A stretch of 64,000 nucleotides of DNA from Diphasiastrum complanatum (Eukaryota; Streptophyta; Lycopodiopsida; Lycopodiales; Lycopodiaceae): NCBI GenBank assembly GCA_029204225.1, contig MU831576.1, positions 95,511-159,510 on the forward strand, in the 5' to 3' direction. The notes beneath the pieces were generated by a model, which worked only from the letters and a program-made list of their open reading frames with translations, was not told where the DNA came from and searched no databases. Each line of letters opens with the position of its first letter. Positions within the stretch are counted from its first letter, which is position 1. The translations under genes and the position numbers were made by a program. Positions 3,085 to 62,470 of this stretch are shown here, in pieces.

Positions 3085-3400
3085 CTCTCTCTTACGTGGC
3101 ATTTCTTAGACAGCCCTTTTGGGCATTGGAACTCCTCTAATGCATATAGACCAATAAGAATGTCTCATGCTTCTTTGGAGCTGGAACAATTAGCTACGTG
3201 AGCTATTTATGAATCTTTAAGATTTAGAGATTCGGATGGCAAGAGCTTTGCCATCCTTAGCTACCCAGGCGGTCAGCATGTCAGGTTCAGCTGGCTTGGC
3301 TATTGAAATGTTGACGTATCCCCAAAGTTTTTTTTCTCTGAGTTTTATCTTCATCTTGAACTTCCACATGTGGAAGTCATCACCGTTGGCGAATCGTGTT
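3085..3400 (-). pseudogene. Ty1/copia gag remnant
   Basis: Read on the minus strand from about 3400, the sequence gives DDFHMWKFKMKIKLREKKLW, the start of a copia-type gag (UBN2-like capsid), and then AWVAKDGKALAIRIS, the usual next block. The frame then breaks, but the following bases still resemble the conserved AKEAWD.L..LY segment. No zinc knuckle, protease or later domain follows on this strand. It is a short, decayed capsid fragment, close in motif content to the gag pieces at 21108 and 27065. Confidence 0.55.
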
Positions 3401-3639
3401 TACTAAAGGTAGTGTTGATACGTGCAGTGTTGTGGATCTCATCTCAAGATTTATAGAAAGCAAGATGTCATTAATAGTTGCTCAAATCTAATCATGTATG
3501 TTTATTTGAGCTAAATTTCTAGTTGTTTGTTTCCAATAAGAGCAAATTGTTTCCATCTCCTTAACAATATGCTGAAAACTCATATGTTCTTTTAGCAACA
3601 CCCAACAAAACAGCAATAGTACAAGAAGAATGAAAACAC

Positions 3640-4215
3640 GCTGATAGGGACCTATTTGGACCAGTAGATGATGTTGAGAAAGATGTTCCAACGACCAAAA
3701 AAATCAAGTTCACCTTTCTACACGAGCTTGCAAATATTCCCTTGGAGGAGCTGGAGATGGTGAGAATTTTAAAAATCCCTTCTAGCCTAAAGGTATTGAT
3801 GCTTAAGATATTAGCCACTTCAATCCATGCTCTTTAAACTGTAATCATGTTTCTAGGCCATATATGTCTAGTCAACTCGCTTTATTATTATCCAAGAAGG
3901 ATTGAATATGATTGCTTTCAAATGAAAATGTTGCAGGAAAAGGAAGCTGTACTTCATGCTAGTTCCCAACATCAATATGGTCTAAAGCACTAGGAACTTA
4001 CATTCAATAGACTATTCAAAACATTACTTGTTTAGCTTGAATGTACTACATGCTTGCAAATGTTGGATTTTTTTTAGAAGCTTGGCAAATCATACCTTGT
4101 TATCAAATGCTCATAGCTCTTCAAATAGTTATGTTTGTGTTATTTTGCTTCGATTCTAGGTAATTGTGAAAAATGGTATTGAGCATGGTGATTCCATTAG
4201 GTTCAAGGAGTAATA
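3640..4215 (+). other. Exon-like open pieces of unknown origin
   Basis: Three plus-strand pieces look coding but have stops between them. They are 3648-3835 (containing KKIKFTFLHELANIPLEELE), a piece after TTGCAG near 3933 (EKEAVLHASSQHQYGL), and one after a CTAG near 4160 (VIVKNGIEHGDSIRF) that ends in a stop. The last resembles the C-terminal substrate-binding domain of type-A DnaJ proteins, which carries a similar V.VEKGMQHG.KI.F motif. The AG before two of the pieces would fit exon starts. This could be a decayed host gene or chance; I cannot confirm either. Confidence 0.25.
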
Positions 4216-8066: not shown

Positions 8067-8748
8067 TGTTAAAAATTCACAATTCTAGCTTGACTAGTTT
8101 TGGTCATATGACTTGTAAATAGTTAGATGGTCATGATGTGGCTTGTCACACGTGCCAAATAGCATAGGATTCCATTCATAAGGATGTTCTCAAGTAGACC
8201 TAAGTGTTAGAACCTTTGGAATGAGTCCAAATTATGCTTAGATACAAGGGAGAAAAAATAGGAGCTATTTTTGGTAATTTTTGCATTGTTGAGGGATCTC
8301 CAAGATTCCAACCCTAACTTGGTAGGGATGAAAGATCCACCAAAATTAGCATTAGGGATAGGTTTAGGGCTACTCATACCTGCCCAAAACCGTGATGGAT
8401 CATGTATATATAGGTGATGATATCTCACCAAAATCAATCAAGCAATTTCATGATTTTTCTCTCATAATGGTGCAATTGCTCTCTATGTTCATAATTGTTT
8501 GAGTACTTGTGATTACTAATGATTATAGGATTGAATGTAGGTCTGGTGTACAGTACTCAGACTGTGGGAGGCCGTACTTTCACACGTGTGAATCCTTCTT
8601 CAAGGATTTGGGCCATTTAGTGAGGTTCAAGCATAGATTTTTGATGGATTTTGATGGTTCAACTTGTGCTAATCTTATGAAATCATAATCTATTGTTTCC
8701 CTCATCATTTCAAGTGTTTTAGGATCCTTATTTGCTGTAATTTTTACA
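8067..8748 (+). repeat. TE1 5' LTR
   Basis: 682 bp, TG...CA. It holds a TATATATA box at 8405-8412, the likely promoter, and a 14-bp palindrome TTCACACGTGTGAA at 8579-8592 containing the CACGTG G-box core. Direct repeat of 13543-14224. Confidence 0.95.
8405..8412 (+). promoter_or_regulatory. TATA box in TE1 5' LTR
   Basis: TATATATA in the middle of the LTR, suitably placed for U3-R transcription start. The 3' LTR copy has TATATACA at the same place. Confidence 0.6.
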
Positions 8749-9559: not shown

Positions 9560-12500
9560 ATGGCATCTATAAATGCATATCTTTTGGATACTAATGAAAG
9601 GCTCAACAAAACTAACTATTCCATATGGAAAGTTAGAATGGAATCTATCATGATCATGCAAGATCTGATGGAAATTGTAAATGGTAAGGAGGGTGAACCT
9701 ATTCATCCTCAAGAAAAAGCCAAATACATCAAGAGGTGCAATGTTGCACTACATTGCATAAAAATGAATGTTGCAAATGAACTCTTAAGAGAGGTAGGAG
9801 ATTGCACTTCAGCTCAAGATGCTTGGGAGACTTTGCAAAAGGTCTATGAATCCAAGAACCAAACTAGAATGTTAGCTTTGAAGAATCAAATCTATAGAAG
9901 CTATCAAAAGAAAGGAGAGAGTGCACATACTTTTGTCCTAAGAGTAAAGGAATTGAACAAAGAGCTAGCCTTTATAGGTGACCCTATCAAGGATGAAGAG
10001 CTTGTTCAACTCATATTGAATGGACTAAGCTTTGAATTTGACAATTTTGTTCAGGGATATGCAATTATGGGTAAGCTACCCATACTTGAAGAACTCCAAG
10101 GCACACTCATGGCCGAGGAATCAAGAAGGAGCCAAATGCAAGAGAGGATGGATAGGCTTTCCATCCAAGGTGGAGATGACCAAGCTCTCTTCACCAAAGG
10201 TAAAGGCAAGTCCAAAGGCAAAGGATCAACATTCAAGAAGTCTAAAAAGCTTGAGGATCAAGAAGGACCCCCAAAGGCATCTCCATCAACCACCAAAGTC
10301 AAGAAGGACAAATCAAAGGTGAAGTGCTACTATTGTAGCAAGATGGGGCATTATGCCTCGGAATGCTTCAAGAGGAAGCAAGATCAAAGCCAAGCCAACA
10401 TGAGCAAAGAGGAGGAGGAGGAGAGTTCACATGAGGACTCTCTCATGATGTCCATATTTTCTTCAACAAGCTTCAAAGGAGAAGATCCTTGGTGGATTGA
10501 TTCGGGTGCTAGTTCACACATGACTAGTAAAAGGGAGTTTTTCTCTTCTCTCTTATCTTATGATGGACCTATAAAGTCTATCTATACAGCAAATGATGAA
10601 GCTTGTAAGATTGAAGGAGTTGGTAGAATTCCCCTTTGCTTAGGATCTTCCAAAAAGATCAACATAGAAGGTGTTTTGTACATTCCTACAATAACAAAGA
10701 ATCTACTAAGTGTTGGCCAAATGGTAGACAATGGTTTCAATGTTTACTTTGCTTCAAATGAATGTTTCATCAAGAAGAAGGGTAAGATAGTGGCTAAGGG
10801 CACTAGACTTGGCAAACTTTATAAGCTGGATGCATTTGTGGATACTAATGTTGTCATGTTGGCCGAGAAGAGCAAGATATCTACCTTTACTTTATGGCAC
10901 AAAAGACTTGGACATGTCAACTCGGGTTCCATGGAGGCTATGATCAAGGAGGAGTATGCTTTAGGCCTACCAAGGTCTATTGGGAAGGAAGACAAGGTTT
11001 GTGAAGCTTGTGCCTTATCCAAGGCACATAAGAAGGTGTTTCCTAACTCCATCACAAATTCATCTCATCCTCTTGAACTCATACACTCGGATGTGCACAT
11101 TGCTAGCACCAAATCTAATGGAGGTTCATCCATGTTTTTAACCTTCATTGATGACTACTCAAGATATTGTTGGGTGTTCTTACTTTCTTTCAAGTCTCAA
11201 GTATTTGATACTTTTGTAAAGTTCAAGTTGTTTGTGGAAAAGCATCATAATCATAGCATCAAGATTCTTAGAAGTGACAATGGTGGAGAATTCATCTCCA
11301 ATGAGTTCAAGGCCTTTTGTGAGGAGGAAGGGATCAAGAAAGAGACTTCTTGTCCTTACACTCCTCAACAAAATGGAGTTGCTGAAAGAAGGAATAGAAC
11401 ATTATGTGAATGTTCTAAGGCTTTAAGATTAGATGCTTGTTTGCCCAAATCCTTTTGGGGTGAGTCTCTTGTATGTGCAAACTACTTGATGAATAGGGTG
11501 TCTTGCAAAGCAATTGAAGGCAAAACTCCTTATGAGATGTTGTATGGAAAGAAACCCAATCTTAATCACTTGAAAGTTTTTGGGTGTATATGTTATGTGC
11601 ATGTGCCATTGGAAACAAGAACCAAGGAGGATCCATCTTCCACAAGAGGGATCATGCTTGGATATGCAAGCTCAAGCAAGGGCTACAAAGTCTATCTCCC
11701 ATCCTTGAACAAATTTGTTGTTTCAAGGGATGTCATCTTTGATGAACATCATATGCATATGCTTGAAGAAGTCTCAAGTGCTCCAACAATCAAGAAGAAG
11801 ATGGCCGAGGAGCAAGATCTTGGTTTTGAGGAGGAGCTCATGGAGGAGCAAGCACCAAACCCACTTATCACACCAAGGAGATCTTCAAGGGCAAAAGTGG
11901 AGCCATCAAGGCTCACATATCAAGGCAAAGGACAGCAAGTTGAGGTTATCTCATCCACTTCTTATGCTTTATCTAGTTTTGAAGAACCGTCTAATGTTGA
12001 AGATGCATTGAACTCCAAATAATGGTATAAAGCTATGTTGGATGAGTATGATGCCTTGATTGAGAATGAAACTTGGTTGCTTGTTGAGAGACCTCAAAGG
12101 AATGTAATAGGATGCAAGTGGGTCTTCAAGCTTAAGTTGAATGCAAATGGGAGTGTTAACAAACATAAAGCAAGATTAGTTGCAAAAGGTTATGCTCAAG
12201 AGAGAGGGATAGACTATGAGGAAACTTTTGCACCCGTGGCCAAGATGGTCACAATAAGACTAATCATTGCACTTGCATCACATTTTGGATGGATTCTATG
12301 TCAAATGGATGTCTCTAATGCTTTCTTGGATGGTTTTTTGGAAGAGGATATCTATATGGAGCAGCCACAAGGGTTCATCAAGCATGGAATGGAGAACAAA
12401 GTATGCCATCTCCAAAGAAGCATCTATGGCTTGAAGCAAGCCTCAAGATCTTGGAATTCAAGATTACATTGCTATCTTATTTCACTTTCTTTTGTTCAAA

Positions 12501-13542: not shown

Positions 13543-14224
13543 TGTTAAAAATTCACAATTCTAGCTTGACTAGTTTTGGTCATATGACTTGTAAATAGTT
13601 AGATGGTCATGATGTGGCTTGTCACACGTGCCAAATAGCATAGGATTCCATTCATAAGGATGTTCTCAAGTAGACCTAAGTGTTAGAACCTTTGGAATGA
13701 GTCCAAATTATGCTTAGATACAAGGGAGAAAAAATAGGAGCTATTTTTGGTAATTTTTGCATTGTTGAGGGATCTCCAAGATTCCAACCCTAACTTGGTA
13801 GGGATGAAAGATCCACCAAAATTAGCATTAGGGATAGGTTTAGGGCTACTCATACCTGCCCAAAACCGTGATGGATCATGTATATACAGGTGATGATATC
13901 TCACCAAAATCAATCAAGCAATTTCATGATTTTTCTCTCATAATGGTGCAATTGCTCTCTATGTTCATAATTGTTTGAGTACTTGTGATTACTAATGATT
14001 ATAGGATTGAATGTAGGTCTGGTGTACAGTACTCAGACTGTGGGAGGCCGTACTTTCACACGTGTGAAGCCTTCTTCAAGGATTTGGGCCATTTAGTGAG
14101 GTTCAAGCATAGATTTTTGATGGATTTTGATGGTTCAACTTGTGCTAATCTTATGAAATCATAATCTATTGTTTCCCTCATCATTTCAAGTGTTTTAGGA
14201 TCCTTATTTGCTGTAATTTTTACA
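13543..14224 (+). repeat. TE1 3' LTR
   Basis: 682 bp, same length as the 5' LTR. The differences I see are T to C in the TATA region (13887 area) and T to G near 14066, just after the G-box palindrome (14055-14068). Confidence 0.95.
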
Positions 14225-21107: not shown

Positions 21108-24100
21108 AAATGAAGAGCATTTTGATGGAGAAAGAGTTATGGGAGATCGTGGTAGGTATTGAAGTCCGGCCAAATACCACTCCAAGTCATATGAGGGCCT
21201 TTGATCAAAAGGGGCTGAGAGCATTGTCCTTGATCAATCTTTTAGTGAAAGACCATGTGATCACTCATATAAGTGATGCCATGATGGCTAGGAGAGCTTG
21301 GGAATCTCTTAGAATGCAATTTCAATCTTACAATCCAGTTCGGGCCATGTTCTTGAAGTCGAGATTGAACGCAATAAGGATGGAAGAAAGTGAATCAGTG
21401 GAATCTTTCGTCACCAGGATAAAGGAGCTAAGAGATCAACTTGTGGCAATTGGAGAACCAATTAGGGACGTTGAATTGGTACATACCACAATGAGCGATG
21501 TTTCAGAAGGGCTATAGATTTTTGTGAGTGGCATTGCTTCGAGGGAGAGGTTGCCTACTTTTGAAGACTTCCACGGAATCATGTTGCAGGAAGAGCAACG
21601 TCACGAAGTGGTGAAGTCAAGGCAAACTCCACAGGAGGATCAAGCCTTGCTTGCTAAAGGCAAGTAGAAAGGATGGAAAAGGATTCCTAAGAAATTCAAG
21701 GATGATGATGACGAGGGAGAGTTGTCATCAAAAAAGAAAAAGAAGAAGAAAGACAAATGTTACTATTGTCACAAACTGGGTCATTGGACACGTGAGTGTT
21801 ACAAGAAGAAAGCGGACATAAAGGCAGGAAAAGTGACTCAACAAGGCAACATTGCCAAAGATGATGGAGAAGATGACGAGACAAGTGTCTTTTCATCGGC
21901 ATTGGCATCCCAAGTTGATGATGGTGCTAGATGGTTCATAGATTCAGGCACCACAAGGCATATGATCGAGAAAAATAATTGGTTTGAGAAATTCTCACCA
22001 ATCCATGATGGGGATAAAGTCACTCAAGCCAATGGGGAGGAATGCCAAATACAGGGTGTGGGCAATGTACCTGTGCAGTTTTTTGATGGTAAAATCAAGA
22101 ACATCCCTAATATGCTTTATGTTCCTGGACTCAAAAAGAGTTTGCTTTTTGTTGGTGTAATGGCAAATCAACATCTTAAGGTTGAACCTGTCAAGGATGG
22201 ATGTCTTATGAGGGATATGAACCACAACTATAAAGTGGTGGCAAAAGGTTATAGAGATAGTAACTGTGGCCTTTATAAACTGGATGCTGCAAAATCAGGA
22301 AAATATGGTTTGGCTATCTCAACAGCATCTCAATCTGAGTTGTGGCACAAAAGACTTGGTCATTTGAACTATGGGAGCTTGAGATTGATGGCAAAGCTGA
22401 AGATGGTAATAGGGTTACCGGCATTGCAGGATGATCATCATACAATATGTGAAGGATGCGTCATGGGAAAGCATCACAGGGAGACATTCAAAAAAGCTGG
22501 AGCTGCAATAGCTAAAAAACCGGTGGTACTCATTCACAGCGACCTGTGCGGCCCAATGAAGACCATGTCGTTGGGGAAAGCATATTATTTTATGACTTTC
22601 ATAGATGATTACTCTAGGAGGACATAGATTTATTTCTTGAAGAAGAAATCTGACGCTTTTGCTCGTTTCAAGGAGTTCAAGACTTTGGTAGAGAACTGAC
22701 TGGATGCACACATTAAAGTGGTAAGATCTAATAGAGGGGGCGAATACAAATCTGATGATTTTGAGGACTTTTGCAAAGAACATGGCATCAAAAGACAATT
22801 CACACAGTCACACATGCCGCATAGTAATGGTGTAGCTGAAAGGAAAAACATGACTATTATGGAGAGTGCACGCTCCATGATGAAGCAAATGGGCTTGGCC
22901 GATTCACTTTGGTCGGAAGCGTGCAATGTGGCAACGTTCTTACAAAATAGGAGCCCTACAATTGCGGTTTCAAATTGAGTGACATTTTGAAGTGTCGAGA
23001 GCCATCAACCTTTGATGAGGCAAAAGTCACAAAGAGTGGCAAAGGAAAATGAAAGAGGAGATAGAATTCATCCACAGGCATGATACATGGGAGTTGGAAA
23101 GAAACCCATTGACAACAAATGGGTGTTTAGAACAAAGTTTCATGTGGATGGCACGATAGCAAAGCATAAGGCACACCTAGTAGTGAAGGGTTATGAGCAA
23201 AGCAAAGGAATTGACTATGAAAAGACATTTGCTCCAGTGGCTAAGTGCACTACGCTACGCCTTTTCATTGCCCTAGCATCTCATTTTGGGTGAAAGATCC
23301 ATCAAATGGATGTGAAGTCCGCAGTTTTGAATGGTGACTTAGAGGAAGAAGTTTACATGGTCCAACCGTAGGGCTTTATGGCAAAAGGGCAAGAACATAA
23401 GGTATGTAAACTACACAAAGCACTTTATGGCCTTAAGCAAGCGCCACACGCATGGTATGGATGCATTGACATTTACTTTCTTTCTCATGGGTTTGTAAGA
23501 ACAAATTCAGATCCAAACCTTTATGTTCTTATAAATGATGATAGCATTGCCTTGATTGTACTTTACGTTGATGATATCATTATCACGGACAATGATGAGA
23601 ACCTCACTCGTTCTATCAAAGCTAACTTATGCAAGCAGTTTGAGATGACAGATTTAGATCTTATGCACTATTGCTTGGATTTCGAAGTATGGCAAACTGG
23701 CAGTGATATCAGGCTATGTCAAAACAAGTATGTGGGCAAGATATTGGAGAGATTTTACATGACAGAGTGCAAACCTTCCATCATCCCTTGTGAAGCTAGT
23801 AAGAAATTATCTCGTATTGATGATAGTGCACATGTTGACGCTACTCTATTTCGTCAGCTAGTTGGGAGTTTGATATATCTTACAACTACACGTCCTGATA
23901 TCTGCTATGTTGTAAGTTTGATTAGCCAATTCATGTCATCACCCACTATGGACCATTGGAAAGCTGCAAAAAGGATTTTGAGGTATGTGAAAGGTACACC
24001 TAACCTTGGCCTAATCTACAAAAGACAAAGTGTTTTACCTAAGTTATAGGGTTATGTTGACGCTGATTGGGCAGGAAGTATAGATAGTCAACAACAGGTT

Positions 24101-24507
24101 ATGCCTTCAATTTTGATAGCGGTTGTTTTTCATGGTCTAGCAAGAAGCAAGATACTATTTCTCTTTCTTCTATAGAAGCCGAATATAAAGCGTTGAGTTC
24201 TACTACCTAGGAAGTTGTTTGGCTACGTAAGTTGTTATGTGAGATTGGCATGAAGCAGGTAAATCCTACTGTTATTTTCTGTGACAGTCAAACTGGAATA
24301 CAATTGGCTAAGAATCTTATCTTTCACGCAAGGACAAAACATATTGAGGTAAAATATCACTTTGTGCTTGAGAAGCTACAATCTGAAGATATAAGTATCG
24401 TACATTGTTCTACGTTATTACAAGTTGTTGATATATTTACGAAAGCTTTAAGTAAAAAAAAGTTTGAGACTTTTAGAGCCAAACTTGGCCTAGATCTGGT
24501 TATGTAA
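21108..24507 (+). pseudogene. TE3 gag-pol remnant
   Basis: Gag begins at MKSILMEKELWEIVVG (start missing) and runs to a TAG at 21515. A basic linker and the zinc knuckle CYYCHKLGHWTREC follow (about 21757). The protease reads WFIDSGTTRHM. Integrase: LWHKRLGHLNYGS, CEGCVMGKHH, HSDLCGP, FIDDYSRR then TAG at 22626; SNRGGEYKS, where the catalytic Asp of the usual SDNGGE is replaced by Asn; HSNGVAERKN. Frame ends at 22976, and the integrase C-terminus is largely deleted. RT restarts near 23100 (NKWVFRTKFHVDG, MDVKSAVLNGDLEEEVYM with stops, LYVDDIIITDN near 23570). RNase H runs to 24507 (CDSQTGIQLAKN). Inactive. Confidence 0.88.
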
Positions 24508-24589
24508 AAAGCCTTTACTTGTAATACTATCATGGAGGTATGTTCCATGAATAGAGTAAACTCTAAAATAAAGAGAGACGTTGATCATT

Positions 24590-24835
24590 GAGGGAGAGAG
24601 TTAAAATAGCAATGATCAACTTATACAGTGCTTTCTTATTTCGACAACACCACGTGTGCTTAGTTCTAGAATTATCGGGCCATCTTTCTTTTATGAGCCC
24701 TTTGAATGCTTTTAAGCAACTTATCTTTGTACTTACTTATCAGTTGAATATACAGTTTGTGGAGAGCAACTCTGTTGTCTTGTCTTGTTGCACTTGACGT
24801 TGTGTTGTGGTGATTGATCCAATCGGGTGTTTAAA
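24590..24835 (+). repeat. TE3 3' LTR-like tail
   Basis: After a purine tract (GAGGGAGAGAG) comes a sequence repeated in TE11 on the opposite strand (59990-60240). Similarity ends near 24838, which should mark the LTR end. The exact LTR start is uncertain because both copies have TTAAAATAGC, not TG, after the tract. Confidence 0.6.
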
Positions 24836-32097: not shown

Positions 32098-32556
32098 CAA
32101 GGATGCAGCCTGAGGTTGCCAACCATCAGGAAGTTGTTCAATAACTGGGCAGCAGCGTGGATTGAAGGTTCAGTGATGGCTTCCAGAAGATAGCCATCAT
32201 TGGTCCAGTGCAAATCGTTGGTGAGGTCAATATACGGCTTGATGGTCTGTTTGGCGTGCTTATGATTGGGTGAGGCCTGTGTGCCAGATGCTATACCTAT
32301 AGCTGCAAGGGTAGCCTCAGTGCGCGCACCTTATGTGTGGCTCCCTGGAAAGTGATATAAAATTTGGATTTCTCTTCCTTCCACGTACTGAAGGCAAGAA
32401 TGATGAATTCCATATTGATGCGACCCGAAAAGGCTTTCTCATGAATACCCATTGCAGTGAGCAGTGGCTCCGCAAGGGTCATCCACTGAGTGACCACGCT
32501 TGTGCTAGGAAGAATCATGATGTCCGCTGCAGATGGGACATCACGATGGATAGTAT
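32098..32556 (-). pseudogene. Unidentified protein fragment, GC-richer than its surroundings
   Basis: The minus strand reads as protein-like text from about 32556 to 32330 (PSAADIMILPSTSVVTQW, then GRINMEFIILAFSTW). After a frame break and stop near 32325 it continues to a TGA at 32098-32100 (TEATLAAIGIASGTQASPN; WTNDGYLLEAITEPSIHAAA). Composition, codon look and the GC of about 50% differ from the AT-rich neighbourhood. It does not resemble copia or gypsy proteins. It abuts a plus-strand copia RT at 32560. Host gene fragment, other mobile element or integrated viral gene are all possible; I cannot name it. Confidence 0.4.
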
Positions 32557-32559
32557 GCA

Positions 32560-33365
32560 GCAGCTTATGACCTCAGGATCCACATTGTGGATGAGAAGAC
32601 AACCTTCTTGCATGGTGAATTAGATGAATAAGTCTACATGGATCAACCCCCAGGATTTATCTCAAATTCACTTCCTGACTATGTATGCAGAATGCATAGA
32701 AGCATCTACGGTCTGAAGCAATCAGCCCGACAATGGTACAAGAAGAAGGATCAGGTCCTGAAATCATTGGGATTCAAGCCTCTGTTGGCTGACTCCAATG
32801 TGTATGTCAGAGTTACAGATGGGCAGATCATCATAGTGGCTGTATATGTAGATGACACTCTGATACTTTACAAGAGCGAGTGGCTAATTTCGGAAGTAAA
32901 GACAGACATCTCGAAACATTTCAAGATAGTGGATCTGGGAGAAGCCAGGTGTTACCTAGGCTTATAAATTGAAAGGGACTATGAGGGAGACAAGTTATAC
33001 TTTCACCAGTCCAGATACACCCAGAAGATCCTAGAAGACTTTGGGATGCTGAACTACAAAGGAGCGAACACTCCAATGCTCGTAGGAACGATGCTAACAA
33101 ATGATGACTGTCCAAAGACTGAGGAAGAAAGAGAACAGATGCAGCTCACTCCCTATAGAAGGCTGATAGGTTCACTGATGTACCTTGCAAACAACACATG
33201 TCTAGTATTCAGAATGAGCCAATTTTGCATGAATCCAAGCTCGACACATTGGAAGATTACGAAACCAATTTTGCAATATTTTCAATTAACAAGGGATTAT
33301 GGCTTGTGTTATTGTCATGGTGCAGGTCTCAGGATACTTTCCTACAGCGATGCTAGCTAGGCATC
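32560..33365 (+). pseudogene. Copia RT-RNase H fragment
   Basis: Starts inside RT with [19 protein letters not shown], then MDQPPGF, SIYGLKQSARQWY, and VAVYVDDTLILYKS with the YVDD active site. The frame is open to a TAA at 32965, resumes with GDKLYFHQSRYTQKILEDFG, and goes on to the RNase H start (LSYSDAS) with a TAG at 33358. The N-terminal RT, gag, protease and integrase are missing. Base composition is GC-richer than TE1-TE3. It meets the minus-strand copia RT piece tail to tail at about 33360. Confidence 0.8.
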
Positions 33366-34375
33366 TCTCAGGGACGAACATAGTCCATAGTCTTTTGTTT
33401 CCTAGAGATATTGTAGTACTCTTTTTGCCAACATCCAATGCAACGATCCTAGGTTCTAATTAAAGTGGCTCAATCTATATATTACAAATGCTATATCAGG
33501 TCTGGTGTTGTCTGCAAGATATAATAATGATCCAATCAGCCTACGATAGGGTGTTTTGGCCATTTGCTTATCTTCCTCGAGAGTCTATGGACAATCTGCC
33601 TTGCTCAGTATTGTTCCAGGTATCATGGGAGTATGCACACCTTTGCATTCGAGCATGTTGAAGTCTTCAATGAGTGTACTTTTGATGGTGAAGATACAAC
33701 TTACCACCTTCAAAGTCACTTTGAATCTGTAAGCCTAGATATATTTTTGTTTCTCCTAGGTCAGCGATCTCAAATATTTCAGAGATGTCTCTTTTGACAT
33801 CTGAAATTAACTTATCTCTTCTTGAGAAGATAAGCGTGTCATCAACATAGACAACTAGAATGATTATTTCATTTTGGACATGCTTGATATAGACATTTGA
33901 TTCAGCAAATAGAGGTTTGAAGCCTAAACGTAGTGCTTCGTCTTTCTTTTTTATACCATTGTCTGGCTATTTGTTTCAGACCATAAATGCTTTTATTCAT
34001 GTGACATCTGTATTCTGGATATTCTTGGCTTACAAAACCAAGCGATTGGTCCATGAATAAGTCTTTTTCCGGTTCTGTGTGCAAGAAAATAGTCTTCTCA
34101 TCCACAATATGGATTTTCATATCATGAGCCACTGCATACGTGAATAACAAGCGAATTGATGTATGTTTGACTACCGGTGAGAAAGTATTAGTGTAGTCGA
34201 TCCCATACTTCTGTGAAAATCCTATAGCAACCAACCTTGCTTTGTATCTGATGTTTTCTCCATCAGGATTTGTTTTGATCTTGTAGATCCACTTGCATTT
34301 GACTGGTTTTCTGCCATCAGGTATTGGTGCAAGCGTCCATACATTGTTCTTATACATGGATGACATTTCATCGAT
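33366..34375 (-). pseudogene. Copia RT fragment, minus strand
   Basis: Minus-strand copia RT from about 34375 leftwards: [93 protein letters not shown]. The frame shifts near 33955 and degraded text continues: VVYVDDTLIFSRR-like sequence near 33855, then IYRLSHFN and KDYGLCSSLRDA near 33370. Gag, protease and integrase are missing because its N-terminal side is fused to a gypsy RT. It is of the same broad lineage as the plus-strand fragment at 32560-33365, but clearly a different copy. Confidence 0.82.
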
Positions 34376-35203
34376 CATTTGTTGGAAAGTCATTGGTGCA
34401 TTGGTCAAACCAAATGGAAGCACCAAAAACTCGTAGTGTCCAAACCGAGTCCAAAAACCCGTCTTAGGTATATCCTGTACCTTAATGTGAATCTGTTGAT
34501 ACCCTGATCTTAGATCTATCTTGGTAAAGTACCTTGCACCACCAAGATAATCTATCAGGTCATCCATTCGTGGTAGTGAATACCTATTCTTAATTGTGAC
34601 TTTGTTCAACTTTTTATAGTCCATGCAAAATCTTATAGTCCCATCCTTCATGGCTACCAGAACCACTGGTGATGCCCAAGGAGAGCTACTAGGTTTAACC
34701 CACCCTTTCGCTAGATACTCACTTAATTGCCTTCGTACCTCAGCCTCTTCCGATACACTCATCCTATAAGGGTGTTGTGTAATCAAAATTGAACCAGGTA
34801 TAAGGTCAATCTTTTGATCTACAGACCTTTCAGGTGGTAAACCTACTAGAAGGTCTAGAAAAACATCATTGAATTTTTGCCTAAGTTCACTATAGGCTGA
34901 AAATTCAATAGTGTTTTGACTAGGTATGTTCATGGCATTAAGTTTAAGAATCTCATCATTGCAAAAAATTAAGTTTTCGTAAAATTTATTGTCTATGTTC
35001 TTTATTAAAGAGTTAAACTCATGCTTAGAGTAAGGTTTAATACTAGTAGCATCAACACTTAATCTAGCACTAATCTTTATTAAAGAACAATCATGCATAA
35101 AAGTTAAAGATTTTTCAACAAAATCAATTTTCAAAGATTTATTCTTATCATAATACCCTTGTTGCCCAAGAACAACATCCACATTTGCCCAAATTAACAG
35201 CAT
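33902..35203 (-). CDS. Chimeric gypsy-copia reverse transcriptase reading frame
   Basis: One ATG-started frame of 433 codons on the minus strand joins two retrotransposon superfamilies. Residues about 1-275 are gypsy: the protease end ([12 protein letters not shown]), then RT with [46 protein letters not shown] (first catalytic Asp) and [17 protein letters not shown]. From about residue 276, at 34370-34380, the text becomes copia RT ([16 protein letters not shown] onwards) without loss of frame. The frame closes before the copia YVDD. The protein would therefore have two RT finger regions and no complete active site, so polymerase activity is unlikely. Whether it is transcribed is unknown. 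An assembly artefact must also be excluded. Confidence 0.75.
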
Positions 35204-36104
35204 GGAATTCTAGTTTTTCAAAATAATCCTGTATGTGCAATGGTACATTAGGAACCACATAATCCATGGGTTCGGAATTTTTCTCACTTTTTTTTATGGG
35301 AAGGTTTAGCATTTGCACCAAATTTGCATTTATAAGATTATGAGTGGATCCCGTGTCAAAAAGTACATTAACAACATGTCCTCCAATTTTACTCTTAATG
35401 CAAATTAAGTCATTAGGTCCATAAAGCATTGAACTAAGAAAACAAATATCCATCTCATTATTTTGAGATATGATACCCTGAGGTTAAGGCTTTGTGTTTG
35501 ACACAATCACATGCAAGGTGACTCTTTCCATTGCACTTGAAGCAAAGATGTTTCTTCGGAGCTTCCGCTAGGTCCTTTATGGCTCCTAGATGATTTTTAG
35601 GGTGGTGTTTGGGTTTCTTAAATTAGGATTGAAAGATGTTTGATTATCCTTTATTTTGTAATGAAAACCCTTCTTTTGCTCATTAGGGTGATAACTCTTA
35701 TGTGGCTTAGGAGTATCATAGAAAAATGTTGCAGCCCTAATAGCATCTTCTAGGGTGTTAGGATGGTTCCTTCTAACTTTCACTTGATATTCCTTAGGTA
35801 AACCATCGATAAACATGAGCATCTGTATCTTTGTAGGTATCTCACTAAAAAGAGGATTAAGATATTCATGGAAATCTTGAATGTATGGATCAAGGCCTTT
35901 AGTCATGGTCAATCCCGAAAGTTTTTGAAAAAGTTGAAAATCATCTAACAAGGGAAGAAAGTATTCCTTGAAAACTAGGCAAAATGCCTCCCATGTTAAT
36001 GGTTGTTTCCCTTTGGTTACTAGGTCCTCCCACCATACTAAGACTTTTCCATCCAGAAACATAGTGGCAGTGGTGAGTTTTTCACTTTCGAAAACATGAA
36101 TCAT
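34375..36104 (-). pseudogene. TE6: Ty3/gypsy gag, protease and RT, minus strand
   Basis: Gag is open from 36104 to 35586 (MFLDGKVLVWWEDLVTKGK, LTWEAFCLVFKEYFLP, FIDGLPKEYQVKV), a retrotransposon gag capsid. The zinc knuckle CFKCNGKSHLACDC is near 35545-35500, after a break. The protease (35453-35148) has VLFDTGSTHNLI, with catalytic Asp. A frameshift near 35200 leads into the RT carried by the chimeric frame. RT ends at about 34375, before its second catalytic Asp pair, where copia sequence takes over. RNase H, integrase and LTRs are not seen. Confidence 0.85.
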
Positions 36105-37290
36105 GGCAAAATACTTATTCCAAACATTAAGCCATGAATTTACTACTGGTAGCCATTATATACTACATGGTTTCGATGATTGGCCAATTTAGATTCAAGG
36201 GCTTGATTCTTCAAATTAGTTTCATGTCAATGTTGGTTTGTTTCTTGAATTTGTTGGTAGAAGAGTGTAGAGCTTGTACCACACATTAAAGTTTAGATAA
36301 ATCAAAGGTAAGATTAAAGGTGGATTGATCCATAGGGTGTCTTGCTTACCAAAAGCTTAAATCCCAAAAAAGTTACAAATTTTTGGATTCAATCACATAA
36401 ATTGACTTAAAACTTATCCAAGCTTTTATTTACATGTTGGGTTCCTCTTTTAGTTTCCATTTTACTCATAATGAACCATTACTAAATTTGATGGCAAATT
36501 TCCATTTTCATTTATCAAATTTTCAAGATGGCTTCATCTATGTTTGTAGCAATGAGGAATGGAGAACTATCCTTTCTTTTGGTAGGAATTGCTAGCAAAT
36601 TCTTTCTCTTTCTTCTTTAATTTCAAAAGTTAAGAAGTGAATGAATCTACAATCCTTTAACCAAAACAATTTTCCCTTTAAAGTACAATCAACTTCCCTT
36701 TACAAAAACCAAAATTTTTGGCCTATTTTTACTAATCCAAGGTTTCAATAGAATAAAAATCATATTTGAAGTTTTCTGAGGTTTTGTGAAGGTCATTGAA
36801 GTGCTGTGAAAATCACTGAAGTTCTGTGAAGAAAGCAAGATTTTAAAATGATGGGTAAACAATTTCCCAACTAATGTAAATCAACTTCCCTTCACAAAAA
36901 CCAGAAATTTTGGCCTATTTTGACTTATCCAAGGTTCAAATAGACTAAAAATCAGATTTGAAGTTTTGTGAAGGTCACTGAAGTTCTGTGAAAGTCACTA
37001 AAGTTCTATGAAAAAATAGAATTTCAAAACAAAGGGTAGCTTTGGCCTAAGATGGGTTGATTCCTCACTGATTTTAGTATGTAAACAAGACCAATCTTCC
37101 AGACTACCTCTATATTTAGTAGCTTCACTTTAGGCACAAACTAAACTTCAAAAATAAAATTTGAAAGTTGAAGTTGGCCTCTTATTGGTTGGGCCCACAG
37201 ATTTGGACAGCCAACAAAAGATCAAACTTCTACTTCTCTACATCAAAATAAGAAATTTTCAACCTCTACTTTCATGAAACACCTCTAGAT
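36105..37290. other. Gypsy leader region with a tandem repeat
   Basis: No gene domain. Immediately upstream of gag on the minus strand, weak gag-like text continues to about 36230. The rest is AT-rich and contains the two-unit repeat described separately. It may hold the gypsy 5' leader or LTR, but no boundary can be set. Confidence 0.4.
36682..37045. repeat. Two-unit tandem repeat of about 194 bp
   Basis: Units begin near 36685 and 36880 with ATCAACTTCCCTT.ACAAAAACC. Each ends with short internal repeats of about 19 bp (GGTCACTGAAGTTCTGTGAA and variants, five or more copies in total). Confidence 0.8.
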
Positions 37291-37702
37291 TCACCTACTT
37301 TTCAACTTGCAAGGGTAGCCCACAAAGATCCCCTTTATTGCTCGAGGATCTAGCTTCTTCCTTCTTGGCATGCTGTCAATTGCAAAACAGAGGCACCCAA
37401 ACGTCCTGAGGTGATTGATATCAAGTTCCTTTCCTGTCCACAATTCTATTGGCGTCTTCCAGGCTAATTTCTCACTGGGAGTTCGATTATGGAGGTAGCC
37501 TGCACATGTTACCGCCTCGACCGAAAAATGCTTTGGAGGGTGCTTCTCATAAAGCATACATCGAACCAGATTTAGCATAATTCTATTCATTCGCTCACTA
37601 ACCCCATTCTGTTGGGGGTTGTAAGGGCATGCAAATTCTCTTCTTATTCCTTCCATCCTACAGAATTCATTGAACTGTCCACTCATGAATTCTCCACCAT
37701 TG
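37291..37702 (-). pseudogene. TE7 integrase C-terminal part
   Basis: Minus-strand copia integrase: NGGEFMSGQFNEFCR, then CPYNPQQNGVSERMNR with the core Glu, AGYLHNRTP, ELDINHLRTFGCLCF and KGIFVGY, ending at 37291. It is the continuation of the integrase at 41149-41636. TE8 separates the two, and roughly 45 residues of the core between them are missing. RT and RNase H of TE7 are not found further left, where TE6 begins. Confidence 0.82.
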
Positions 37703-38487
37703 TGTTGAAATGGAAAAATAATCCATCTTGACTTTAGGCTTGCTACAAATATTGTACCATGCAAGTTTGTTGTTCATAAATGCAAAATGCCAAGTTTGGC
37801 CTAGATAGAACTCGAGCTACATGGATATGTCATATCTAGAATGATGAGTACAACTTGCATATATATTGTAGACATAGAATTAGCATAATTATGCTAGTAG
37901 AAACTCGTGGCAATTCACATGCATTAATTTTAAGTGATCCATAGTGACATGCAAGGCATGCACAAAGTGTAATGGACACATGCATGATGATTTGTACATT
38001 TCTAGTTAGGACACTTGGAAAAAGTTGGTAGAGATTCATGCATGAGAAGTGACAAATGTCACATAGACTCTAGTTTTCACTTTAGAGTCATTAAATGATG
38101 GATGGATGTGGTTATACCTCGAGCTACCTCAAACTCCATAAATATGTGTAGCTCTCCTCATTATTTTTTATGAAGAACCAAAGCTTTGTAGCTATCTCAT
38201 GCCATTTTGGATCCACACAAATTTTGCTTGTTATCTCTCTATCTTTCTCTCTCTAACTCGTGTTGAGGCTAATGCTAATACACTGATATCTTGTACTTTT
38301 GCTCATTAATAATTCATTGCTATCATTTTCTGAAGCTTAGCATGCTAGATTGTGGTTAAGCCATATCTTCTGAACTAGATCTTGTTAATCAATCTAGAAT
38401 CAGGTTATTGTGCTAATCACAAAGCTTAATTAGATCTATCATACTTGTGAATCTTCCCCACACGTGTGAATTCTGGAAATTTTGTCA
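37703..38487 (+). repeat. TE8 5' LTR
   Basis: TGTTGAAATGG...TTTTGTCA. The first 360 bp are repeated at 40789-41148 with roughly 95% identity by eye. CACACGTGTGAA lies near the end (38459-38470). Confidence 0.88.
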
Positions 38488-38499
38488 TGGTATCAATGC
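38488..38499 (+). other. TE8 primer binding site
   Basis: TGGTATCAATGC, two mismatches to the tRNA-Met site TGGTATCAGAGC, immediately after the LTR. Confidence 0.8.
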
Positions 38500-38779
38500 C
38501 AAATTGAGTTTTGCATGCTAACATCTCTGATTGTCAAGAAATTGAGAGTTAAATCAAGCAAAAAAGCAGTTTTGCACTTTTTCTTACCTTTCTCTGAAGT
38601 GTATTTGGATCAAATCAGATTGGAACTAAATTTTCAGACCTGAAAAGTGGTAGTACAGAATTCTGAAATTCCGCACATGTGAAAATCAGAGATTTTCAGT
38701 CCCTTCTATCTCTTTGCTTGTAGATCCAAAGATAGTGGTGTTATAGCTTGATGGAAAGCTTATGATCTGTACTCGAGCA

Positions 38780-40770
38780 TGGTGGAAGTGACAAAGCCCT
38801 CTTTGTCAAAGACAAGCATAAAGGAAGGAGTAAGAACCAGTTCTCTCAAGCATTTAACAAAGACAAAGCCAAAGATCGAGACAAAGATGGTGAAGAGGAT
38901 GATACATCTCATCCCTCTACTTTAAAGACCAAGAAGAAGAAAGTGAAGTGTTTCTTCTGTGGCAAGAAGGGGCACAATTAAAACCAACTCAAGCAAGCTA
39001 ATCTCTCCAAAGAGATTGAAGAAGATTCTGTTGCAAGTGATGGAGAAGGATCACTTATGTTGTCCAGTTTTTCTTTATCACCTTTCAAGAAAGATGGAGC
39101 TTGGTACATAGATAGTGGAGCTTCTTCACATATGTGCTGTTCAAAGGAGTCACTTGACTCAATTATACCTTACAAAGGACTCAAGAGATCTATTTACACT
39201 GCTAATGATCATGAGTGCTCTATAGAAGGGATTGGCAACATTCCATTGAAACTTGCTTCTTCAAAAGTTCTTGCACTTTCAAAATGCTCTTTTCATTCCA
39301 AAACTTACAAAGAACTTAATTAGTGTGGGAAAGTTGCTTGATAATGGTTGTGATGTAAAGTTCAACTCCAATACTTGCTTTATCAAGAAAAATAATGAGA
39401 TCCTAGCTGATGGATCTAGATGTGGTCGAATTATTAAGTTGAATTCTTATGAGAATGCAAATCTTTGTGAAGTTGCTTTGTTATCTAAGGAGGAGTTGTG
39501 GCATAGAAGGTTGGGGCATCCTAACTTTAAATCTATGTCTTCTATGGACAAGAAAGTGAAGGCCATTGGTCTTCCAAAATCTCTTTCCAAAGATTTCAAG
39601 CCTTGTGAGGCTTGTGCTATTGCAAAATCACACAGAAAGCCATATCAGAAGTCTTTCATAAAGACTATTCATCCTTTGGAGCTTATACACTCGGATGTAC
39701 ATTTTTCCTCTTCTAAAAGTATTGGTGGTGCAACATGTTTTGTCACCTTTATTGATGACTTTACTAGATATACTTGGTTGTATCTACTTTCTTCAAAAGC
39801 TATGGTATTTGATCACTTCTTAATCTTTAAAGCTTATGTTGAGAAACAGTTTTCTTCAAAGTTAAAGCTTTAAGATGTGATGGAGGAGGTGAATACATCT
39901 CCAACAAGTTTCATGAATATTGTGAAGGTGAAGGAATAAAGAGAGAGTTTTCTTGTGCTTATTCTCCATCTCAAAATGGAGTTGCTGAGAGGAAAAACGG
40001 ATCTTTATGTGAATGTCCTAGAGCAATTCGAGTTGAAGCTTCTTTGCCTATTGAATATTGGAGTGAAGCTATAAATTGTGCAAACTATTTGTGCAATAGA
40101 TTATCTCATAATGCACTTGCTGGAAAATCACCTTTTGAAGTCTTGTTTAAGAAGAAACCTAAGGTAGATCACCTTAGAGTTTTTTGTTGTACTTGCTTTG
40201 TTCATATGCCCTTGGAAACAAGAAAAGAGATGATCCTAATTCTATTAAAGGATCATGATTGGATATGCATCCAACAAGAAATCTTATAGAATCTATGTTC
40301 CCTCCTCAACTACAATTGAGAGTAGGGACATTATATTCCATGAGGATCAAAAATACATTCTTGAAGAGGCCGAGTTCAAAGATTCTCACAAAGATACTCC
40401 AATCATCACCCTTGAAGACTATCATAGAGAGATAGGGTCGAGAATATAGGAGGAGTCACCTCAAATCTTTTCACCAAGGAGATCTTAAAGAGAAAGATTC
40501 GAGCCTAGGAGGCTTACTTATGAAGATAGAGGCAAGCAAGTGGAAATCAATTCCACTAATTCTGTTTATTTTATTTCACATGAGGAGCCAAAGGATGTAT
40601 ATGATGCACTCAACTCAAATGAATGGTACCTTGCCATGAAGGAGGAATATGATGCTTTGATGACCAACAAGACATGGGAGCTTGTGGTTGCAAGTGGGTT
40701 TTTCGAGTCAAGTATATCAGCATAGAGCCAATCTTGGAGTAATGCCAAGATCCATGTTTAAGTCAATATA
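38780..40770 (+). pseudogene. TE8 gag-pol remnant with internal deletions
   Basis: Starts in the gag tail (GSDKALFVKDKHKG) because the capsid part is deleted. The zinc knuckle CFFCGKKGHN is cut by a stop at about 38980. Protease: WYIDSGASSHM (39100). Frame breaks near 39290. The integrase zinc-binding part (LWHRRLGHPNFKS; CEACAIAKSH) and core (HSDVHFSSSKS, FIDDFTRYTW) are open to 39873. The core end and C-terminus are in other frames (QNGVAERKNGSL, FCCTCFVHMPLETR). RT starts at about 40560 (EEPKDVYDAL, TWELV) and is cut near 40700, joining directly to the last residues of the polyprotein before the 3' LTR. Strongly deleted and inactive. Confidence 0.87.
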
Positions 40771-40788
40771 GATTGTTTTTAGGAGAAA

Positions 40789-41148
40789 TGTTGAAATGGA
40801 AAAATAATCCATCTTGACTTTAGGCTTGCTACAAATATTGTACCATGCAAGTATGTTGTTCGTAAATGCAAAATGCCAAGTTTGGCCTAGATAAAACTCG
40901 AGCTACATGGATATGTCATATCCAGAATGATGAGTACAACTTGCATATAGATTGTAGACATAGAATTAGCAAAATTATGCTAGTAAAAACTCATGGCAAT
41001 TCATATGCATTAATTGTAAGTGATCCATAGTGACATGCAAGGTATGCACAAAGTGTAATGGACACATGCATGATGATTTGTACATTTCTAGTTAGAACTA
41101 GGACACTTGGAAAAAGTTGATAGAGATTCATGCATGAGAAGTGACAAA
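40789..41148 (+). repeat. TE8 truncated 3' LTR
   Basis: Preceded by a purine run TTTTTAGGAGAAA. It matches the first half of the 5' LTR and then switches at 41149 to TE7 integrase. Confidence 0.85.
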
Positions 41149-42751
41149 TCGTCTGTGAAAGTGATGAAATAGTAGGCTCTTCCAATTGAATTAACTTCCA
41201 CTGGTGTGCACATGTCATTGTGTATCAATCTCAATGTCTCCTTTGCCCTTCTTGTAGCTTATCTGACATAGGGTCTTTTTGTCATCTTGCCCTTAAGACA
41301 GGTATCGCAATTTTGGCACAACTCTGCCTTGCTGATAGTGCAGTTCCTTATAAGGCCCTTTTTTGCCAGCTTGCAAAGTTTTTGGTAGGATATGTAACCT
41401 ACCCTCCTGTGCCATACATCATCGTCATCATCTTCTTCGGCTATGAAGAGCTGCTCTGCATCTCCCGCCACACTGTTGCATTTTAGCTTGTAGAGGTTGC
41501 CTACTCGTTCACCTGTGGCAATCGTTGCTCTATCGGTGGTCAGCTCGCATATATCTCTTTCAAATGAAATCCTTATTCCCATCTTGGTGATTTTGCTGAC
41601 TGAGAGTAAGTTTCGTCCTATCGCTGGTGCATACAAAACATTCTTTACGATGCCTCATCCAGCAGGCTACAGCCCGATGGTTAACTCTCCTATGCCAACT
41701 GCCATAACATACGTATTGTTCCCCATGAAGATCTGTGGGTGGATTGAGATCCTCAATCCTGCGGAATATCCTTGCATCATGGGTCATGTGCGAAGTTGCC
41801 CCTGAATCTAGATACCATTGTGTGTCAGGTTCAAATTCGTCATCTGGTGTCTCCTCCTGGTTTCTGTTGGGCTTGGTGGTCGTCTTTACCCCAGCCATGA
41901 GTGACCATTCGTCTATCATGGTGAGCGCACTTTCTCCTGGTTCAACTTCTCCCTCATCAGCCATATTTGTGGCTTCCTTTATCTGCAATCCCTTGACATG
42001 CGCCTTGATTGGGCAATTATTCAAGACACTGTTGTCACAAAGAAAACACTTTCTTTCCCTTTTCTTGAATTCCTTCCTTCCTTTCTTCTGCTTTGTAGGT
42101 GCCCCTTTTACTAAGAGGGCATGCTCTTGTATAGGCTGGGGCCTCACCTTGGAGCGTCTGAGATCAGCTTCAAGTACTCTCCGTATGGCTACTTGAAGGT
42201 TCAGGTCATTCTCTCGTTCTTCTGCAAAATGGCCCTCCATAGATGCGATGAGGGGCTCAAAGAAGGATGGCAACCCTACCACGAACATGCAGGCTAGTTG
42301 CTTTTCCTCATTGACAAATCCCATCGCTGCCAATTTACGAGAAGTTTGTCTGAAACGCTCAGCATAGGTTGCAATTGGTTCACCTTCTCCAGCCTGCATA
42401 CTAGTGAGCTCTCTATGCAAGATTATGCGTGAACCAAGTCCCGTGCCCTGATATAGCTCCTTCAAATGCTCCCACACGCCATTAGGGGTGACCTCATCCT
42501 GGATCTGTGATCCAACGAGACTGCTGAGGGAAAGGCAGATCATAGTATATGCCTACCTGAAACGATCCCTAAAAATATCCTGGCGTTCAGTAATCTCCTG
42601 CAGGCTCACGCTCTGACCCCGTCACAATGTCCCACAGGCCTCGCTCCTTCAGGAGAATCTTCATGCACCACGACCAGTCGCTGTAGTTGTCACCTTCCAA
42701 GCGCTCTAAGCTCTGTGGGTCGAACACCAACTGAGTGGATCTTTGAGCCAT
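41149..42751 (-). pseudogene. TE7 gag, protease and integrase N-terminal part
   Basis: Minus-strand copia polyprotein. Gag starts at the ATG 42751-42749 (MAQRSTQLVFDPQSLERLEG, then WSWCMKILL). After a break it is open from 42543 (capsid text with ELTSMQAGEGEPIATYAERF, FVVGLP). The zinc knuckle is abnormal: CFLCDNSVLNNC. The protease has WYLDSGATSHMTHDA near 41810. After a frame break near 41690 the integrase zinc-binding domain follows (VWHRRVGYISYQKL, with Tyr where the second His usually is; CDTCLKGKM), reaching 41149, where TE8 interrupts. GC content is visibly higher than in TE1-TE4. Confidence 0.85.
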
Positions 42752-59989: not shown

Positions 59990-60240
59990 CTGACCGGATC
60001 AATAACCACAGCACAACGTCAAGTGTAACAAGACCACAGAATTGCTCTCCTCAAACTGTATATTCAACTGACTCGTAAGTACAAAGATAAGTTGCTTAAA
60101 AACACTCAAAGGGATCGTAAAAGAAAGATGGCCCGATAACTCTGGAACTAAGCACACATGGTGCCGTCGAAATAAGAAAGCACTATATAAGTCGATCATT
60201 GCTATTTTAACTCTCTCCCTCAATGATCAACGTCTTTTTT
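59990..60240 (-). repeat. TE11 3' LTR-like tail
   Basis: Repeats 24590-24835 in reverse orientation, about 90% identical by eye, preceded by the same purine tract. Confidence 0.65.
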
Positions 60241-60302
60241 ATTTTAGAGTTTACTCTATTCATGGAACATACCTCCGTGATAGTATTACAAGTAAAGGCT
60301 TT

Positions 60303-62470
60303 TTACATGACTAGGTCTAAGCCAAGTTTGGCTCTAAAAGTTTCAAACTTTTCTTTACTTAAAGCTTTTGTAAATATATCAGCAACTTGTAATAACGTAG
60401 AACAATGTACAATACCTATATCTTCATATTGTAACTTTTCACGCACAAAGTGATATTTTACTTCAATATGTTTTGTCCTTGCGTGAAAGATAGGATTTTT
60501 AGCCAATTGTATTCCACTTTGACTGTCACAAAAAATAACAGTGGGATTTACCTGCTTCATGCCAATCTCACATAACAACTTACGTAGCCAAACAGCTTCT
60601 TGGGTAGCAGAACTCAACGCTTTATATTCGGCTTCTGTGGAAGAAAGAGAAATAGTACTTGCTTCTTGCAAGACCATGAAAAACAACCGTTACCAAAATT
60701 GAAGGCATAACCTATTGTTGACTTTCTATCATCTATACTTCCTGCCCAATCAGCATCAACATAACCTTGCAACTTAGGTAAAACACTTTGTCTTTAGTAG
60801 ATTAGACCAAGGTTAGGTGTACCTTTCACATACCTCAAAATCCTTTTTGCAACTTTCCAATGGTCCATAGTGGGTGATGATATGAATTGGCTAATCAAAC
60901 TTACAGCATAGCAGATAGCAGGACGTGTAGTCATAAGATATATAAAACTTCCAACTAGTTGACGAAATAGTGTAGCATCAACATGTGCACTATCATCAAT
61001 ACGAGATAATTTCTTACCAGCTTCGCAAGCGGTGATGGAAGATTTGCACTCTGTCATGTGAAATCTCTCCAATATCTCGCCACATACTTGTTTTGACATA
61101 ACCTGATATCACTGCTAGTTTGCCATACTTCGACACCCAAGCAATAGTGCATAAGATCTAAATCTGTCATCTCAAATTGCTTGCATAAGTTGGCTTTGAT
61201 AGAACGAGTGAGATTCTCATCATTGCCAGTGATAATGATATCATCAACGTAAAGTAGAATCAAGGCAATGTTGTTGTCATTTATAAGAACATAAAGATTT
61301 GGATCTGAATTTGTTCTTACAAACCCATGAGAAAGAAAGTAACTGTCATTGCGTCCATACCATGCATGTGGCGCTTGCTTAAGGCCATAAAGTGCTTCGT
61401 GTAGTTTACATACCTCTTGCCCTTTTGCCATTAAGCCCTGCGGTTGGACCATGTAAACTTCTTCCTCTAAGTCACCATTCAAAAATGCAGACTTCACATC
61501 TATTTGATGGATCTTCCACCCAAAAATGAGATGCTAAGGCAATGATAAGGCATAGCGTAGTCCACTTAGCCACTGGAGCAAATGTCTCTTCATAGTCAAT
61601 TCCTTTGTTTTGCTCAGAACCCTTCACTACTAGGCGTGCCTTATACTTTGCTATTGTGCCATCCGCATGAAACTTTTCTAAACACCCATTTGTTGTCAAT
61701 GGGTTTCTTTCCAAGTGGTAGATCAACCAACTCCCATGTATCATGGCTTGTGGATGGATTCTATCTCTTCTTCCATTGCCCTTTGCCACTCTTTGTGATC
61801 TTTTGCTTCATCAAAGGTTGATGGCTCTCGACACTTCAAAATGTCAGTCATTAGGGCATAGTTCACATGATAACAATCGGGAGACTTCCTTTCTTGTGTT
61901 GATCTTCTCACTTCACTTTGTGTGCTAGATCCTGTTATGATTTAGCTTTGTGTCCTTCATGATCTTTTCATACCATTCTGGTATCTTTGATTCAGGTGAT
62001 ACACTACGTGGAGAGTATGTATCCCAAGGAGTGTCCAAGTAATGTCTCTTACTTCCAACCGGTTTTCTCCTTTATTGCTCCTATTGGCAAGTACCTCCCC
62101 TAGGCTCTTGAATAGGTGGTGTCTTTTCATACTCGCTCTCTCGACTCTCATCTTCATGTGCATCATCTTGTGGAGCATCTTCTTCATCTTCTTCCTCCAA
62201 AATTGTGAGAAGTCTTTTGATACTTTCACCACTTGCATGGTCTTCATCTTCATACCTATGCGTTCATCAAAGGTCACATCTTTGCTAATGTGAATCTTAT
62301 TTATTACTGGATCAAAACACATATAAGCTTTCGTTCTTTTATCATAATCAACGAAGATACACTTGATTGCTTTGGCATCAAGTTTCTTTTGCTCCTCCTT
62401 TGGCACATGTACATAGGCCTTACATCCAATGACACGAAACTTGTCGATTTTTGGCTTTATTCTAGTAGGT
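60303..62470 (-). pseudogene. TE11 pol remnant
   Basis: From right to left: integrase C-terminal extension (KIDKFRVIGCKAYVHVPKEE, KDVTFDERIG), then an acidic/basic linker in broken frames to 61957. RT spans 61789-60794 in at least three frames: ADGTIAKYKARLVVKG, DYEETFAPVAKWTTL, AFLNGDLEEEVYM, ALYGLKQAPHAWYG, LLYVDDIIITGNDEN and LVGSFIYLMTTRPAI. RNase H spans 60686-60303 with [18 protein letters not shown] and CDSQSGIQLAKNPIFHARTK. It is less damaged than TE3 in RT and keeps the YVDD motif. Frame breaks at about 61490, 61080 and 60790. Confidence 0.88.

Follow-up and report, generated by a model that had tools for sequence, protein, structure and literature searches.

How a single open reading frame can pass from the reverse transcriptase (RT) of a Ty3/gypsy retrotransposon into that of a Ty1/copia element is the question raised by a 64,000-nucleotide stretch of the genome of Diphasiastrum complanatum (hereafter, the window). 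An earlier note on this sequence offered two sources for such a frame, template switching between co-packaged RNAs and recombination inside old elements, and it is the latter that fits the anatomy of the locus. With a probability of roughly 0.87, the frame represents a chance in-phase fusion within a mosaic of dead LTR retrotransposons, formed by illegitimate recombination after integration.

The frame (33902-35209) lies on the minus strand and joins the N-terminal part of a gypsy RT to the N-terminal part of a copia RT. From stop to stop it comprises 435 amino acids (33905-35209), with its stop codon at 33902-33904; its existence had been correctly recognized, at 33902-35203 and with no strand given, and the plus strand of that interval carries many stops. 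Pfam detects RVT_1 at residues 188-288 (E 3.3e-16) followed by RVT_2 at residues 288-421 (E 3.3e-37), confirming that gypsy leads into copia without a stop. The protease that had been counted as part of the frame does not belong to it: the Pfam protease match (35148-35483) is in a different frame, so that the 435-codon frame starts downstream of the protease core. Near both of its ends, single-base indels are present with respect to relatives. Thirteen stop-to-stop frames in the window reach 200 amino acids or more, of which this one ranks fourth in length, and when the frame itself was taken as the starting sequence it stayed open in 13% of 4,000 trials after 52 random substitutions, and in 2% after 104. 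Its openness is thus mildly lucky, though the frame was chosen for being open.

Both partners can be assigned to a superfamily by domain order. The window gypsy copy displays gag, protease, and an RVT_1-type RT, in this order, while in its relative L060 (loci are numbered with the prefix L) RVT_1 precedes SH3_Tf2-1 and Chromo domains; the stretch L060:4787-5089, which has no Pfam match, is read here as integrase. The window copy is hence classed as a Ty3/gypsy element of the chromodomain type, its chromodomain end being taken from relatives. The copia fragment carries an RVT_2-type RT, and its relative L009 presents an integrase (rve) upstream of RVT_2 as well as LTR-like repeats, which assigns the fragment to Ty1/copia.

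The position of the join was defined by the best one-sided matches, which place the last copia base at 34372 and the first gypsy base at 34374, inside the predicted interval of 34370-34380. An 81-bp query of window DNA across this point was searched against the whole genome (1.74 Gb, 5,176 contigs) and 40 matches were scored; since only the best candidates are scored, the counts are lower bounds, and decayed dispersed copies may escape. Three of the 40 matches span the join and 37 are one-sided: 20 copia matches stop at 34372, 15 extend 7-15 bases beyond it at 89-94% identity, and two gypsy matches start at 34374. A whole-genome search on the scale of ~300 bp, as the earlier note had proposed, was performed with a 301-bp query, and was again spanned by 3 of 40 scored matches, all on collinear contigs and none dispersed, the other 37 lying on the copia side.

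In coding sense, the letters of the window across the join are CAACAAATGATCGATGAAATG. The corresponding letters in gypsy relatives are CAACAAATGATGAACGATTTG or variants of it, and in all of the 22 loci displayed the gypsy sequence continues past the join, with L029-L031 diverging ~25 bases further on. In copia relatives they are CAAGCAATGGAGGATGAAATG or variants of it, at 16 distinct loci, L032-L047 (L032 is contained in L009); this alignment excludes L002 and L003, which are duplicates of the window, L051, which is a gypsy copy, and L048-L050, which are at least one base too short for the anchor. The sequence common to both sides of the join amounts to a few bases at most. Neither an LTR end nor a visible target duplication is present at the join, which links internal sequence to internal sequence and does not bear out nested insertions with a target duplication, the explanation named in the earlier note as the one that would undo a chimera.

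The join is present in three contigs: C58, which holds the window, C585, and C1306 (159,510, 87,157, and 65,826 bases, respectively). Over the 81 bp, C585 is 99% and C1306 98% identical to the window. C585:19500-29499 corresponds to window positions 39439-29446 at 99.87%, and additional C585 pieces align with window positions 58903-50926 (99.2%) and 29445-21447 (99.8%) and with C58:70510-64575 (99.8%). Similarly, C1306:53500-63499 corresponds to window 39659-35060 (99.8%) and 34630-29238 (99.7%), with further pieces matching 47647-39660 (99.7%) and 29237-26925 (98.3%); C1306:1-8000 is unmatched, which would follow from a position beyond the end of C58. The flanks of the three contigs are therefore collinear and 98.2-99.9% identical in pieces sampled across tens of kilobases, and this collinearity in all comparable pieces indicates that the contigs represent alleles or segmental duplicates and not transposed copies. 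C1306 is without ~429 bp of the gypsy part inside the frame, a stretch that is present in L060, and its frame is reduced to 242 amino acids. Among the 40 scored matches, no junction copy was found in unrelated flanks.

The pieces that surround the join form a mosaic. The copia partner, here termed copia A, is an internal RT fragment of ~996 bp on the minus strand (33377-34372) with an LTR at neither end. Of 40 scored matches at its second edge, 33376/33377, three continue across, on the three contigs already named, and the other 37 cover the copia A side only, from 33377. There it abuts, tail to tail, copia C (32554-33376, plus strand), which contains RT and the start of RNase H, the latter by homology to L009 and our own reading, Pfam being silent on 32968-33360. 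On the other side of the join, the gypsy 5' half (34374-37267, minus strand) includes, at its 5' end, an LTR or leader with homology to L061, and then gag, protease, and the N-terminal part of RT. Adjoining the gypsy 5' end, across the unassigned positions 37268-37290, is an integrase-region fragment of another copia, E/B (37291-37702, minus strand), the upstream part of which lies at 41147-41892 on the same strand; in the relative L067 the two parts are ~120 bp apart. Between E and B lies copia D (37703-41149, plus strand), bounded by 361-bp direct repeats (37703-38063 and 40789-41149) that are ~97% identical (the value of 96.7% compares C585's copy of one with the window's other) and are probably the LTRs of an internally deleted element that inserted into copia E/B.

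The missing parts of both partners were sought by blastn, and neither the rest of copia A, as represented by L009, nor the gypsy 3' half was found in the 64-kb window. Gypsy protein matches at 1.0-1.4 kb (~29% identity) and at 6.4-7.6 kb (39-51%; 67% at the DNA level) belong to other gypsy elements and not to the missing 3' half. Had copia A been the RT that belongs downstream in copia E/B, the locus would reduce to one gypsy insertion and one deletion; this possibility was rejected on the basis of four relatives, L067-L070: L067 has E and B joined and no copia RT resembling A; in L069, a 73% relative of E/B with homology to integrase, RT, and RNase H, the RT is unmatched to copia A by blastn; and L068 and L070 have no RT matching copia A. 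L067 (G000 C14:48950500-48954500) also presents, after its E/B relative, a gypsy RT stretch (71% identical to window 34567-34374) and gypsy integrase-like homology. Elsewhere in the window, a long inverted repeat pair in pieces (23134-24783 and 60028-61676) is 90-95% complementary over a separation of ~35-38 kb, and 300-bp direct repeats that are 100% identical (8067-8366 and 13543-13842, 5.5 kb apart) surround an 820-codon frame (9560-12019), in what looks like a young LTR element.

Does the fused frame behave as a gene? The YxDD-type motif is the catalytic motif of reverse transcriptases, and no [YF]xDD occurs in any of the 435 residues of the frame; the copia YVDD is located in a separate frame (33667-33966), due to an indel near 33950 in copia A. 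Substitutions at the three codon positions number 26/20/25, 27/20/27, 26/14/28, and 21/21/22 in the gypsy half (against L060, L061, L062, and L010, respectively) and 15/8/10 in the copia half (against L009), with no clear third-position excess in either, in a test that is weakened by the decay of the relatives themselves. Nonsynonymous to synonymous counts for the gypsy half are 53:18, 56:18, 48:20, and 48:16 against the same four relatives, with a neutral expectation of 2.7, and 23:10 for the copia half, where the ratio of 2.3 is slightly under the neutral 2.8 on few counts. Substitutions in the fused frame thus look neutral, and selection is unsupported by a test that decayed relatives make weak; the frame appears to lack both marks of a functional reverse transcriptase, YxDD and purifying selection. 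No sign of mobility or of selective retention of the fusion was seen, and the idea of the chimera as a mobile element finds no support in the absence of dispersed copies among 40 scored matches, the missing YxDD, and the near-neutral substitutions.

The frequency with which related gypsy copies are broken and joined to copia sequence was surveyed at 25 loci that carry this gypsy RT, 20 fetched for the survey (3-kb stretches) in addition to L010, L011, L060, L061, and L062 (7.5-9 kb); with six pairs being nearly identical, the loci count as 19 groups, which are top matches to the window gypsy and not a random sample. In L060 coordinates, the window junction falls at 3319 and the RVT_1 stretch at ~3039-3515. 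Homology to L060 breaks inside this stretch in 5 of the 19 groups: at 3290 (L090), 3293 (L076), 3359 (L062, with an extra 35-bp match to ~3420), 3385 (L072/L074), and 3412 (L079, with a later piece). In most other groups it ends at 3611-3959, where some ends may be L060 indels and not truncations. Copia protein homology is present within the surveyed stretch in 6 of the 19 groups, three in sense (L062, L010/L011, and L090) and three in antisense (L072/L074, L079, and L080/L081).

One of these, L062 (G000 C7:40021500-40030500), harbors at L062:3699-4067 a second direct in-frame fusion, of gypsy RT into a copia integrase region, and past one stop the copia reading runs on through RT into RNase H. 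Its junction is spanned by 1 of 40 scored matches, and the fusion is independent of that in the window. L010 and L011 were considered as dispersed copies of the chimera and rejected, as their gypsy RT leads into another copia, from which it is separated by a repeated, LTR-like piece of 98 bp. It is of note that the pairs L010/L011, L072/L074, L073/L075, L080/L081, L082/L083, and L084/L085 are mosaics of 3-7.5 kb that are 98.3-99.9% identical on different contigs (C19:42.68 Mb and C8:14.50 Mb, for example); L073/L075 and other pairs lie partly on small contigs, and the pairs represent either dispersed segmental duplication or unmerged haplotypes.

Template switching between co-packaged gypsy and copia RNAs, with integration of the chimeric cDNA and subsequent decay, would generate a join that is same-sense, internal-to-internal, and in frame, as is observed, and L062 provides a second direct gypsy-to-copia join in sense and in frame within a small sample. 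By our reckoning, about 1 in 6 joins between coding sequences would be in sense and in phase, so that the window and L062 together lend template switching slight, though not zero, weight. In the available part of PMC1950507, complex LTR insertions in Triticeae are explained in this manner; like the present locus they fuse the sequences of two elements, but they possess outer LTRs and 5-bp target site duplications (TSDs), none of which is seen here. Copia A instead stops at 33377, where it meets a copia fragment in inverted orientation, without an LTR; no LTR pair bounding the chimera is seen, and no dispersed copies occur among the scored matches, all of which leaves this explanation, although it was one of the two originally proposed, unsupported and improbable. 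A broader version, in which gypsy and copia RNAs occasionally recombined during reverse transcription and both the window and L062 are independent in-frame cDNAs, later truncated into relics, is very improbable.

Simple nested insertion at the join, be it of copia into the gypsy RT or of gypsy into copia, draws on the likelihood of nesting nearby, where copia D sits between the parts of copia E/B and the gypsy adjoins the latter. The join itself, however, is internal on both sides and without an LTR end, the other gypsy half was not found on its far side, and blastn gave no match between copia A and the RT in L069, a relative of E/B, making such an insertion highly unlikely. Least likely of all is an assembly artefact or a chimeric read: although the three junction contigs are short, and no chromosome-sized contig with the join is among the scored matches, three separate contigs carry it, and the SNPs and the ~429-bp deletion that distinguish them make an assembly slip unlikely.

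In the preferred account, illegitimate recombination after integration, a chromodomain-type gypsy would have come to sit inside a copia, within the integrase region of the latter, and the 3' half of the gypsy would have been lost afterwards. The broken end of the gypsy RT would then have been joined to the ~996-bp piece from inside the RT of an unrelated copia by illegitimate repair, putatively end joining that may have involved copied filler DNA, and this piece would itself have been joined to the inverted copia fragment. Both pieces being coding and, by chance, in the same sense and phase, the frame stayed open, and the locus is now found on three contigs, which represent alleles or segmental duplicates. 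We infer the sequence of these steps, the pathway of repair, and the nesting of the gypsy at its 5' end; the arrangement itself has the features of an illegitimate-recombination mosaic: internal breakpoints, little homology, mixed orientations, and a join that is limited to one locus with its duplicates.

Plant LTR elements are commonly truncated and nested, and their mosaics have been attributed to illegitimate recombination, according to the available part of PMC11899658. The present locus resembles these in its deletion derivatives, in the juxtaposition of pieces from several families, in breakpoints that are internal, and in a join at one locus and its duplicates, and differs in that two coding pieces are joined in phase into a 435-codon frame. 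Filler DNA has been found where double-strand breaks were repaired in plants (PMC7156093, available part); little homology at the join and an internal fragment without LTR ends are shared features, whereas the piece here measures ~996 bp and its templated copying is putative. Among the titles and abstract openings listed in a full-text literature search, none describes an in-frame gypsy-copia RT fusion, which does not imply its absence from print.

Were the window and L062 relics of recombination during reverse transcription, they would show that elements of different LTR superfamilies can recombine as they replicate. Where a genome is rich in repeats, a long frame that crosses two superfamilies is not on its own evidence of a chimeric element, and what discriminates is how the fragment ends on its far side, what flanks the other copies, and whether the catalytic motif is there.
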